DNA from: Rhodothermales bacterium
Lineage (GTDB): Bacteria; Bacteroidota; Rhodothermia; Rhodothermales; VXPQ01
Assembly: GCA_951812335.1 (NCBI GenBank)
Contig: OX638293.1
Coordinates: forward strand, 1,844,731 to 1,908,730
Length of the DNA stretch: 64,000 nucleotides
Direction of reading: 5' to 3'
The notes under the pieces are model-generated. The model saw only the letters and a list, made by a program, of their open reading frames with translations. It ran no database searches and was not told the DNA's origin. A program made the position numbers and the translations under genes. How positions within the stretch are numbered: position 1 is the stretch's first letter; every line of letters begins with the position of its first letter. Of this stretch, positions 45,414 to 49,799 are shown piece by piece.

Positions 45414-46196
45414 ATGCTTGTCGCCGGTAACTGGAAAATGCACACGGATATGGATGCGGCGCGCACCCTTGCGCGCGATGTCGTGGATTCGGTGGGAGAT
45501 CCCGGGGATGTAACGGTCGTCGTGTGCCCTCCATTCGTGAGCCTATCCGCTGTGGCCGCGGAGATTGCCGGTGCGCCGGTGGGTCTTGGGGCCCAGAACA
45601 TGCATGCGCAGGATACGGGCGCCTTTACCGGCGCGGTGTCGGCGCCGATGCTGACGTCGGCGGGGTGCCGGTACGTGATTTTGGGGCACTCCGAGCGCCG
45701 GCAGTATTTCGGGGAGACGGATGAGGGGGTATGCGCAAAAATCGGACAGGCGCATGCCCACGATCTTGTGCCGATCGTGTGTGTTGGCGAGACGCTGGAA
45801 GAGCGCAAGGCAGACAGGGCCGAAGAGGTCGTGGGGCGGCAACTGGCGCACAGTTTACATGGTGTGGCGCCGGATAGCCCCGATCAATTGGCGATTGCCT
45901 ATGAACCGGTCTGGGCGATCGGCACGGGAGAAACGGCCACGCCCGATCAGGCGCAGGAAATGCATGCCTTCATTCGGGGGCGGCTGAACGAACAATTCGG
46001 CGAAGAGACGGGTCGCGCCCTGCATATTCTGTACGGAGGGAGCGTCAAACCGGGCAATGCCGCTGAACTGTTCGTGCAGACGGATGTGGACGGCGGGCTC
46101 ATCGGCGGCGCCAGCCTGAAGGGGGGAGACTTTGCGGCGATTGTGAGAGCGGCCCAGGCCTTCAATCCGACTTCCCGATCTTACCGATCCCGGTGA
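45414..46196 (+). CDS. tpiA: Triosephosphate isomerase
   Basis: A 260-residue TIM-barrel enzyme. LVAGNWKMHTD (start), the catalytic histidine in YVILGHSERR, the catalytic Glu in AYEPVWAIGTGETATP, and GGSVKPGNAAEL are present. It interconverts dihydroxyacetone phosphate and glyceraldehyde 3-phosphate. The start ATG leaves only one residue before the usual VAGNWK box; the family often has 2-4 more. The 3' end overlaps the convergent DUF1295 gene by 35 bp. Confidence 0.97.
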   Translation: MLVAGNWKMHTDMDAARTLARDVVDSVGDPGDVTVVVCPPFVSLSAVAAEIAGAPVGLGAQNMHAQDTGAFTGAVSAPMLTSAGCRYVILGHSERRQYFGETDEGVCAKIGQAHAHDLVPIVCVGETLEERKADRAEEVVGRQLAHSLHGVAPDSPDQLAIAYEPVWAIGTGETATPDQAQEMHAFIRGRLNEQFGEETGRALHILYGGSVKPGNAAELFVQTDVDGGLIGGASLKGGDFAAIVRAAQAFNPTSRSYRSR

Positions 46197-47019
46197 ACGG
46201 GATGATACGCGGGGTACTCGCCTGATATTCCGCATAGGACGGGTATTTGGAAAGCGAGATGGATTCTGCAAGCCGTGACGAGCCGAAGAAAACCATGGTC
46301 AGCATAATAAATCCCGGCAAGGTCCAGGTAACTAGTTGCCCCGAGGCCGCGATTGAGAACCAGTAGAAACTCCACCACATGCCGAGCTCGCAGAAATAGC
46401 TCGGGTGCCGGCAATAGGCGAACAAGCCCGAGGTTATGAAAACTTGATCGACCGGTTCGCCGGCTGCGATCTTGCGCTTCTTTTCCTGTTGAAAGCGCCA
46501 CATCTGTTCATCGCCCACGATTTCTCCGATCCAGAGCGTGAAAAACACCAGCGCTGTCAAGGCATCGATCCAGTTCAGCGCCACATCCCGATGCGCCCAG
46601 GCAATGTGCACGGGCGCCGTGAACAGCCAGACGATGAGCATCTGACCTGGAGCGATAAACACCAGGTTCAGCAGCTGAAACCGGACGGGTCCTATGCGCT
46701 TGCGGATCTCCAGCCAACGGTAATCTTCCCCGCCTTTGGCGAATCCCCCCTTGCGTGCATAGTTGAAGGTGAGCCGCACCCCCCACAAGAAAACGAGCAA
46801 GGTCATCAGGTTCACCCGGGTGGATTCGAAATCCAGAGATGCGGCGACAATCAGACAGTAGATCGGCGGACAAATCGTCCAGAGACGGTCGACCCAGGAA
46901 TACTCGCGCGTGATCACCGACAAGAGGTAGGCGGTAATCGCGAGGATAATGCACAGATCCAGCGCCGTACCGTAAGGCGTTCCAATCAATGGATGGGGTA
47001 TGAAGTTGAGATCAGGCAT
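46162..47019 (-). CDS. DUF1295/steroid 5-alpha-reductase-like membrane protein
   Basis: A 285-residue polytopic membrane protein (six or seven helices). It has ITREYSWVDRLWTICPPIY, the NYARKGGFAKGGEDYRW motif and LFAYCRHPSYFCELGMWWSFYWFS, which is the DUF1295/isoprenylcysteine-methyltransferase-like signature with a conserved R-H-P. The family is thought to reduce or modify lipids, with no agreed substrate. It is on the minus strand, converging with tpiA with overlapping ends. Confidence 0.85.
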   Translation of the reverse strand: MPDLNFIPHPLIGTPYGTALDLCIILAITAYLLSVITREYSWVDRLWTICPPIYCLIVAASLDFESTRVNLMTLLVFLWGVRLTFNYARKGGFAKGGEDYRWLEIRKRIGPVRFQLLNLVFIAPGQMLIVWLFTAPVHIAWAHRDVALNWIDALTALVFFTLWIGEIVGDEQMWRFQQEKKRKIAAGEPVDQVFITSGLFAYCRHPSYFCELGMWWSFYWFSIAASGQLVTWTLPGFIMLTMVFFGSSRLAESISLSKYPSYAEYQASTPRIIPFTGIGKIGKSD

Positions 47020-47364
47020 AAGGCGAGGCGATGGCCTCCTGAACGGGGTGATCGGTTTGCGCCTTCATCATCATCGCGGCCCGTCTACAGCGTTTAGGGA
47101 TAGGCCCTTCCAGGAAGGGATTTTCAGGGAGGCAAGTTACCGATCGGAGAGGTCCGCACCAACCGGAACAGCCCTTGCGCTCCATCCCCACTGGAACATT
47201 TCCAAGCGGGTGAAGCCGTTGCCGGAGTGCATCCGTCCTGAATGGGGAAAACTTTACGGTGATTGTACGGGCGTGGCGGAAGCAGGACAGGGGAACAATG
47301 CGGATTATCGTCTTTTGAAAATTCAGAAAGTAATCCCAAATTGTATAAACCATCGGAGAATACC
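47020..47364. other. Intergenic stretch of 345 bp between DUF1295 gene and Cys-rich peptide
   Basis: I see no open frame with protein-like composition on either strand, no RNA gene and no clear terminator. The divergent promoters of the DUF1295 gene and the Cys-rich peptide gene must lie here. A GGAG ribosome binding site at about 47355-47358 precedes the latter. Confidence 0.5.
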
Positions 47365-47448
47365 ATGAATGCTCCAGAAGGCCAAAGCTGCAAGTGCTGC
47401 CCTTGCGAGAAGTGCTGCTCCTGTTGCTGCTGCCGCCGCAAGGCGTAG
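47365..47448 (+). CDS. 27-residue cysteine-rich microprotein
   Basis: ATG at 47365 with GGAG 6 bases upstream, and a TAG at 47446-47448. The peptide has 27 residues, of which 10 are cysteines in clusters (SCKCCPCEKCCSCCCC), ending RRKA. The cysteine density resembles a metallothionein or other metal-binding peptide, but the length and motif order match no named family that I know. The good ribosome binding site, the run of TGC codons and the clean ends favour a real gene. A chance short frame remains possible. Confidence 0.55.
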   Translation: MNAPEGQSCKCCPCEKCCSCCCCRRKA

Positions 47449-47504
47449 CGCCTTGCTTCTATTAGGTCCTGTTCTCCGCAGGCATGCGGAGTAAGGGAAC
47501 CTGC

Positions 47505-47753
47505 ATGAATCTGCAACTCATCAAGGCCATTATCATCCTGCCCGGGACGGCCCTTGTTTTCATTCCGGGGGCAATACTATGGCTTTCGGCTGGCTCGCCA
47601 GGGGCTATGGCGTTGGCTGAGCCTGAATATCCCAGGTTCTGGATCGGCTCGGGACGGGGCGAGTTTCCAGCGAGGAAGAAAGGTTCTGATGGCAAGAGAC
47701 CGTATGAAAGGCGTAGGGGGTTGGCTGCTGGTATTGTTTTCGAGTATCCTTGA
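47505..47753 (+). pseudogene. Truncated isoprenylcysteine-methyltransferase-like fragment
   Basis: The first 45 or so residues (MNLQLIKAIIILPGTALVF, then PRFWIG) resemble the N-terminus of a membrane methyltransferase of the ICMT/phospholipid methyltransferase type, with a first transmembrane helix. After FWIG (about 47645) the sequence no longer resembles the family; the catalytic R-N-P...E-E region is absent. I read it as a decayed gene. A real short membrane protein cannot be excluded. Confidence 0.45.
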
Positions 47754-47868
47754 GGGCCGACCGCGAGCGAGTAGCGAGGAACTGCTCGCCGCCCTGCCGA
47801 TTCTTTTGGGAATCGTTATTTTCTCGCTACGCAGGTCGATTTCTATCATACGGGATGGCTCGAAATAA
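47689..47868 (+). pseudogene. Small membrane-protein fragment, DUF2569-like N-terminus
   Basis: The frame starts at ATG 47689 (59 residues) and opens with MKGVGGWLLVLF, similar to the N-terminal G-x-G-G-W-L motif of DUF2569 proteins. It continues with a second hydrophobic segment (LLAALPILLGIVIF). A full DUF2569 protein is about 130-150 residues, so this would be less than half. It overlaps the preceding fragment in another frame. It is probably a remnant; the family call is weak. Confidence 0.35.
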
Positions 47869-48022
47869 GCAACCACTATCGGGTTTGCTCATTCTGGTGG
47901 GGGGTGTATCTCCGGTTGCTTCGCAGATACATAGAGCAGGGAGAAGTTGTGCCCTACCATGAGCGAAATAATGCATAGCCATCTCGCCAGAATTGTTTGT
48001 TCCGTGCACAGCAACCCGTGGC

Positions 48023-48457
48023 ATGCATAGACGACATGCGTTTATCGCTTTGCTATTCGCTTGTGCCGGTTTGAGCGCCGCCGCCTCGGTTCAGTCGAGC
48101 TCCGGCCTCTATCTGAGTCTGGAAGTCGGCCTCAACGCGGCGCCGTCCGTGGAACTGCTGGGCAACAGCACCGACCGGGCCAGCCGCTGCGACGAGTTCA
48201 TCAATCCCCTGTACGCCGACGTTGCCGGGTGTACCGATCCGAACCGCGGGTCGGGTGCAGGCTGGAAAACAGACTATGATCCTGCCATGGGCATACTGGC
48301 GGGGGGCGCCATGGGCATACTGGCGGGGGGCGCCATCGGCTACCGGGTCGGAGGAAGGCTGCGCATCGAGGCGGAATGGTTCCACCGTGCATCCGGGTAC
48401 GACCAGACATCGCCCGTAGCGAGCGCCACCGGCGATACCTTGCGGTACCTGTTCTGA
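48023..48457 (+). pseudogene. Truncated outer-membrane barrel protein, paralogue of the 48960-49799 gene
   Basis: The frame encodes 144 residues: a signal peptide, then SLEVGLNAAPSVELLGNSTD, a CDEFINPLYADVAGCTDP region, and IGYRVGGRLRIEAEWFHR. The same order and motifs (D-R-A-S-x-C-D-E-F-I-N-P, then V-P-G-C-T) occur in the protein encoded at 48960-49799, so the two are paralogues of a porin-like barrel family. This copy stops after about four predicted strands (DTLRYLF), and about half of the barrel is missing. A tandem 24-bp duplication lies inside it. Confidence 0.6.
48287..48334 (+). repeat. Tandem 24-bp duplication
   Basis: Two identical 24-bp units in tandem: 48287-48310 and 48311-48334. 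They encode MGILAGGA twice, adding one copy to the barrel sequence. It keeps the frame. Such a short tandem copy may be a recent slippage event. Confidence 0.9.
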
Positions 48458-48890: not shown

Positions 48891-48959
48891 TCGGAACGCT
48901 TCGTGCCTTGCCATGCCATGAATCAAGACCTGCTTCTCAAACCATTATGGAGAGAAATT

Positions 48960-49799
48960 ATGCAGAGGGAGATTTTTTCTTTCTCGTTTCTTGTGAAAAC
49001 CAACTTGGCCATGAGGCGCATTCTTGTTTTCGGGTGCAGCCTTGTGTGTCTTATGCTGCTCACGCTGCCAGGCTTTGCCCAGCCTGCCTCGCGCGCTTAC
49101 GTATCTATGGAGTTGGGAGGGAATTTCGCGTCAGGGTGGGATATGCAAGGGAAAGCCAATGACCGGGCCAGTGTGTGCGACGAATTTATTAATCCAATGT
49201 ATGTCTCCGTACCGGGCTGCACTGGTGTACGCGGAGGAGATGACACATGGGCAGTGGCGTTTGATGGAGCACGGGGCATACTGACAAGCGTTGCGTTGGG
49301 GTATGCGGTACATCCCCTGGTGCGCCTCGAAGCCGAATATCTGTTTCGCACTTCCAATTATTCCCGGCAATCTCCCGTACAAAGTTCTGCGGGGATAAAT
49401 GTAGCCAAACTGGGTGATGAACTGGAATTTGCCGCAGAGCGGCTGGGAATTGTCACTGCAAGTCACACCTTGGCCAATACCTATATCAGCATACCGACCG
49501 GCAATAACAGATACCTTCCCTACATAGGAGGGGGGATAGGGTTTGCTTTCACGAATGCCGGATATAGCAGCGTGTGGGCGCGCAACCCGGATCCTGCGGC
49601 TATTCAAACGGGGCGCGATCTACCCAACGCAGAGCAGATTGCCCAGACGCTGGCCGACGCCCTCGGGCCTTTGCACAGCACCCGCATTCCTTTTGTCGTA
49701 CTCTACGGTATGCCCGTATTGCGTTCGGTTCCTTCCCGGTTTCTTCAGGCGTTTTCCGCTTTCACCTCCATATGCCTTCCACCATACTGGACATATTGA
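48960..49799 (+). CDS. Porin-like outer-membrane barrel protein, 3' end probably damaged
   Basis: A 279-residue frame from ATG 48960 (GGAG upstream), with a signal peptide ending FAQ-P. Typical barrel strands follow (YVSMELGGNFASGWD, ALGYAVHPLVRLEAEYLFRTSNY, YISIPTGNNRYLPYIGGGIGFAFTNAG). It is a paralogue of the truncated 48023-48457 frame. From about residue 240 the sequence loses the barrel pattern (IPFVVLYGMPVLRSV...), and the frame runs 28 bp into cvpA. The C-terminal strands and usual terminal Phe are absent, so a truncation by deletion near 49680 is likely. Confidence 0.6.
   Translation: MQREIFSFSFLVKTNLAMRRILVFGCSLVCLMLLTLPGFAQPASRAYVSMELGGNFASGWDMQGKANDRASVCDEFINPMYVSVPGCTGVRGGDDTWAVAFDGARGILTSVALGYAVHPLVRLEAEYLFRTSNYSRQSPVQSSAGINVAKLGDELEFAAERLGIVTASHTLANTYISIPTGNNRYLPYIGGGIGFAFTNAGYSSVWARNPDPAAIQTGRDLPNAEQIAQTLADALGPLHSTRIPFVVLYGMPVLRSVPSRFLQAFSAFTSICLPPYWTY

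Follow-up and report, generated by a model that had tools for sequence, protein, structure and literature searches.

We found a very short, cysteine-dense open reading frame that probably encodes a real, previously undescribed protein and that is restricted to a single genus of the Rhodothermales. It lies within a 64,000-nucleotide stretch of DNA (hereafter, the window) belonging to a 2.69-Mb single-contig genome (G000), one of the six species of the genus compared here (G000 to G005), a genus that constitutes its own family. The predicted product has 27 residues, of which 10 (37%) are cysteine, and the ribosome site, the reading frame, and the cysteines are conserved in two related species. 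Our favored reading, which we hold tentatively, is that the frame is a translated small-protein gene whose product would serve as a miniature metallothionein, buffering or detoxifying metal. The features of the locus are collected in Table 1.

Table 1. Features of the cysteine-rich ORF and its surroundings, in window coordinates.
Feature	Position	Strand	Remarks
DUF1295 protein (PF06966)	46162..47019	-	Divergent upstream neighbor; Pfam match
Shine-Dalgarno-like GGAG	47355..47358	+	6-nt spacer, then ATG; kept in G003 and G005 as GGAG(A/G)ATACCATG
Cysteine-rich microprotein ORF	47365..47448	+	Translation MNAPEGQSCKCCPCEKCCSCCCCRRKA*; start ATG at 47365, stop TAG at 47446-47448; orthologs G003:C46:223833-223907(-) and G005:C616:7721-7795(-)
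Terminator-like hairpin GCAAGGCG-TAG-CGCCTTGC	47438..47456	+	Loop is the ORF stop codon; TTCTATT follows
Hairpin AGGTCCT..CTCCGC..GCGGAG..AGGGAACCT	47464..47502	+	Would sequester the methyltransferase ribosome site
PEMT-family methyltransferase (PF04191) fragment	47505..47651	+	Residues 1-49 of 167; intact in G003, G004, and G005
Fragments of DUF2569-like and AHSA1/SRPBCC genes	47653..47975	+	Both lie 3' of the methyltransferase in relatives

A sequence-only reading of the window had described an ORF of 27 residues with 10 cysteines, preceded by GGAG 6 nt before its ATG and closed by TAG, and this description was borne out. The ORF is the sole start-to-stop frame in the window to pass a filter of at most 50 codons, at least 6 cysteines, and at least 30% cysteine, and no frame passed the same filter in 60 fifth-order Markov simulations of the window totaling 3.8 Mb. 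When 114 genomes of the order were searched, CxCCxCxxCCxCC as a codon pattern was matched only by the window ORF, its two orthologs, and, in three genomes, pure trinucleotide repeats of CTG/TTG. Compositionally, the peptide is marked by cysteine, lysine, serine, glutamate, and arginine; it has no phenylalanine, tryptophan, tyrosine, or histidine, and its sole bulky hydrophobic residue is the initial methionine. A consensus scan for sigma-70-type promoters found none.

The corresponding place was located by DNA search in three other species of the genus. G003 and G005 encode an identical peptide, MNTPQSCKCCSCEKCCSCCCCCRKA (25 residues, 11 cysteines), with the start and ribosome site as in the window and all 10 window cysteines retained. 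In G004 the flanking genes are present and the ORF-bearing stretch is replaced by a shorter unrelated sequence, while G001 and G002 carry neither the ORF nor the neighboring methyltransferase. In a tree of gatB, G000, G003, and G004 stand at nearly equal distances from one another, and G001 and G002 fall outside them. G005 lies close to G003, so that the most economical history has a single origin of the ORF before the split of the four species and one loss in G004; alternatively, G004 may have branched first. The gatB genes of G001 and G002 (L307 and L308) contain an apparent in-frame insertion around residues 345-360, their aligned regions spanning 1686 and 1566 nt compared with 1497 nt in the window species.

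Outside the genus, searches of 245 genomes of the class and of a sample of the phylum turned up no relative of the peptide, and neither did tblastn against plasmids and phages. The peptide had no family match in Pfam (E-values up to 10) or NCBIfam and is assigned to no known family, and searches of the PDB and Rfam returned nothing relevant to the cysteine-rich ORF. When genomes and viral contigs were scanned for CxCCxCxxCCxCC, none of the matches listed was a relative once the shadows of trinucleotide repeats had been removed, and a stricter cysteine pattern had no match in the viral contigs. None of the weak matches in five further genomes of the order (E-values 0.15-1.6) was a conserved short ORF with start and ribosome site, and we therefore attribute them to chance. 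Distant homologs of the methyltransferase within the order are not preceded by any comparable cysteine-rich ORF.

The pattern of substitutions among the three orthologs suggests that the frame is under selection as a coding sequence. There are 10 variable columns, falling 3/0/7 at codon positions 1/2/3. Every one of the seven at third positions is silent, the stop included (TAG to TAA). Three replacements occur (A/T, P/S, and R/C), none of them at a window cysteine, and the sole indel is 6 nt long and in frame. Between the window and G003, third positions differ at 6 of 26 sites and first and second positions at 3 of 52, and silent-site divergence in the comparison genes is 0.20 for gatB and 0.19 for the DUF1295 gene. 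Because third-position divergence is about that of flanking silent sites and divergence at positions 1 and 2 is low, the conservation is not accounted for by a mutation rate that is low locally. Binomial tests of codon position and silent excess (7 of 10 changes silent) gave P of about 0.016-0.02, and in neutral simulations at the silent rate of the genus, all 10 cysteines were kept in both relatives with P=0.0017, and all cysteines together with an intact ORF with P of about 0.0003. With only three sequences compared, of which two specify an identical peptide, the test for selection depends on ten changes, and for this reason we regard the coding support as good but not overwhelming. As for other frames through the same DNA, the changes in the alanine-rich and leucine-rich alternatives on the plus strand are mostly replacements; two antisense frames are open and less clear-cut, with replacements commoner than in the cysteine frame.

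The ORF also stands at a locus undergoing loss. In the related species, it or its site is followed on the same strand by genes for a PEMT-family methyltransferase, a DUF2569-like protein, and an AHSA1/SRPBCC protein, a three-gene run that is intact in three sister species and that in the window (47505-47975) has collapsed to fused fragments by nested deletions. The sequence-only reading had placed the ORF at the border of a decayed region, correctly so, since the downstream genes have been reduced to fragments by internal deletions; the cysteine-rich ORF itself is intact though the adjoining methyltransferase is broken. In G005, the DUF1295 gene beside the ORF has been cut to its last 48 residues (L303:7905-8048), a further deletion at the locus. 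In G003, a SAM methyltransferase gene (L021:3495-4613), which is not there in the window, G004, or G005, lies between the DUF1295 gene and the ORF; we take it, from reading its sequence, to be of the arsenite methyltransferase type (ArsM-like). Apart from this insertion in G003, the neighboring genes include no metal genes, a point against the metallothionein reading. Further downstream in the window, a DUF418-like fragment lies between two paralogous outer-membrane-like ORFs (47993-48457 and 48903-49799) that are 44% identical over the part they have in common. The first of these ORFs is truncated, and neither matches Pfam.

Since the peptide was matched by nothing among protein families, structures, plasmids, phages, or the wider genomes searched, any proposal for its function draws on its composition and setting. 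On composition, a metallothionein-like thiolate peptide, in keeping with the metal binding suggested by the sequence-only reading, is the best reading: at 25-27 residues and 37-44% cysteine, with no aromatic residues, it has the small size, very high cysteine content, and scarcity of aromatics typical of metallothioneins. The product would be unstructured until metal is bound, whereupon its 10 or 11 thiolates could enclose a small cluster of soft metal ions, such as Cu(I), Zn(II), or similar, and the loaded peptide would act in metal buffering or detoxification. In fungi, metallothioneins with 7 cysteines take up about 6 Cu(I), and every cysteine of a CCC run is able to coordinate copper (PMC13107397). 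The mammalian alpha domain, Zn4Cys11, holds four Zn(II) with eleven thiolates, the number of cysteines found in G003 and G005 (PMC10243857). The absence of the ORF from G004, and of both the ORF and the methyltransferase from G001 and G002, counts against a metallothionein, as does the position of the ORF at the head of an operon, which also fits a leader peptide.

The closest likenesses in size are to the fungi-I metallothioneins, such as the copper metallothioneins of Agaricus bisporus and Neurospora crassa, which are likewise very small and dominated by cysteine. The Neurospora protein is near 25 residues long, and fungal metallothioneins have a regular CxC spacing. They carry 7 cysteines, whereas the peptide of this genus has 10-11, arranged in CC, CCC, and longer runs, and occurs in a bacterial host; no sequence homology between the two was detectable. 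SmtA/BmtA (PF02069) and MymT are likewise small cysteine-rich bacterial metal binders, a capacity that in the genus peptide is predicted. MymT is 4.9 kDa, and SmtA-type metallothioneins have histidine ligands and a zinc-finger fold. The latter are also about twice as long as the genus peptide (the PF02069 model has 51 positions), which does not match the PF02069 profile; this classical bacterial metallothionein was found in none of the six genomes of the genus, the control being positive.

The main rival, which did not figure in the sequence-only reading, is that the ORF encodes a regulatory leader peptide attenuating the downstream operon. The run of cysteine codons would slow or stall the ribosome as cysteine, or metal sensed by the nascent thiols, changes, thereby altering the stop-codon hairpin and expression of the methyltransferase operon, and the peptide would be disposable. 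The geometry suits such a role: the ORF is co-directional with the methyltransferase and ends 57 nt 5' of its start, its tandem cysteine codons end directly 5' of the terminator-like hairpin, and conservation extends to the spacer and to the second hairpin, which covers the ribosome site of the methyltransferase. There are precedents in mycobacterial poly-cysteine short ORFs, which are described as cysteine-responsive attenuators (Canestrari et al. 2020, as cited in PMC9094748 and PMC9031893), and in CruR (DUF2946), a copper-responsive upstream ORF (PMC9426467). The mycobacterial ORFs, as the citing papers present them, share with ours their shortness, tandem cysteine codons, and a position upstream of and co-directional with an operon; they are leaderless and cysteine-responsive, whereas the genus ORF has a ribosome site and no cysteine-metabolism gene alongside and, unlike those attenuators as described there, remains whole in a genome whose downstream gene is broken. 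CruR is similarly an upstream ORF whose cysteines could sense metal during translation, but it is longer and exported, has one CXXC and a RAPP arrest motif, and lies 5' of copper genes, motifs and context that the genus ORF does not have.

Several observations speak against a leader. The second hairpin occurs in all four species, and in G004 it and the methyltransferase persist with no ORF beside them, while the window retains the ORF with a broken methyltransferase; gains and losses of ORF and methyltransferase are thus decoupled both ways, which argues against an obligatory leader. The stop-codon hairpin is a pattern match of a kind expected about once by chance in the 1 kb scanned, and a stop codon in its loop is at odds with the usual logic of attenuators. 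Its stem pairs at 8 of 8 positions in the window and at 7 of 8 in G005 and G003 (with one G-U pair in G003), leaving a mid-stem mismatch in both, although only three sequences are compared. The downstream genes are neither sulfur nor metal genes, and the leader region had no match in Rfam. We consider a leader peptide possible but doubtful, and prefer a candidate metal-binding microprotein by a modest margin.

The ORF could instead be a chance or recently arisen functionless frame, conserved through close kinship; it occurs in one genus, is absent from half its species, and sits where genes are being lost by deletion. Yet at a silent-site divergence of about 0.2 no cysteine has changed, most changes are silent, and both the neutral-drift simulations and the 3.8 Mb of simulated sequence make such a frame unlikely. 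The sequence-only reading held that a chance frame would show itself by loss of frame conservation or of the start and ribosome site in relatives; frame, start, ribosome site, and every cysteine are kept in two of them. We conclude from this conservation, demonstrated on a small sample, that the ORF is no chance frame. The sequence-only reading's other suggestions, a thiol redox buffer, an Fe-S carrier, or the precursor of a modified peptide, are very unlikely, for while so many thiols (10 or 11 in a peptide of 25-27 residues) would be redox-active, the genes next to the ORF in the four species include none for an Fe-S, redox, or peptide-modifying enzyme, and the peptide has neither a leader-core architecture nor a Pfam or NCBIfam family.

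The peptide may, though we are rather doubtful, represent a new genus-specific family of ultra-short candidate metallothioneins built on contiguous cysteine runs, its 11 thiols per 25 residues sufficing for an M4Cys11-type cluster, or else a peptide with two functions, binding metal and also controlling the operon through its cysteine codons. A 25-residue peptide can be obtained by synthesis, making the question directly testable. Should the peptide prove to be translated and to bind metal, few known bacterial metal-binding proteins would be as short or as dense in cysteine, and its case would show that such peptides can arise and persist within a single genus, missed by annotation pipelines and homology searches.
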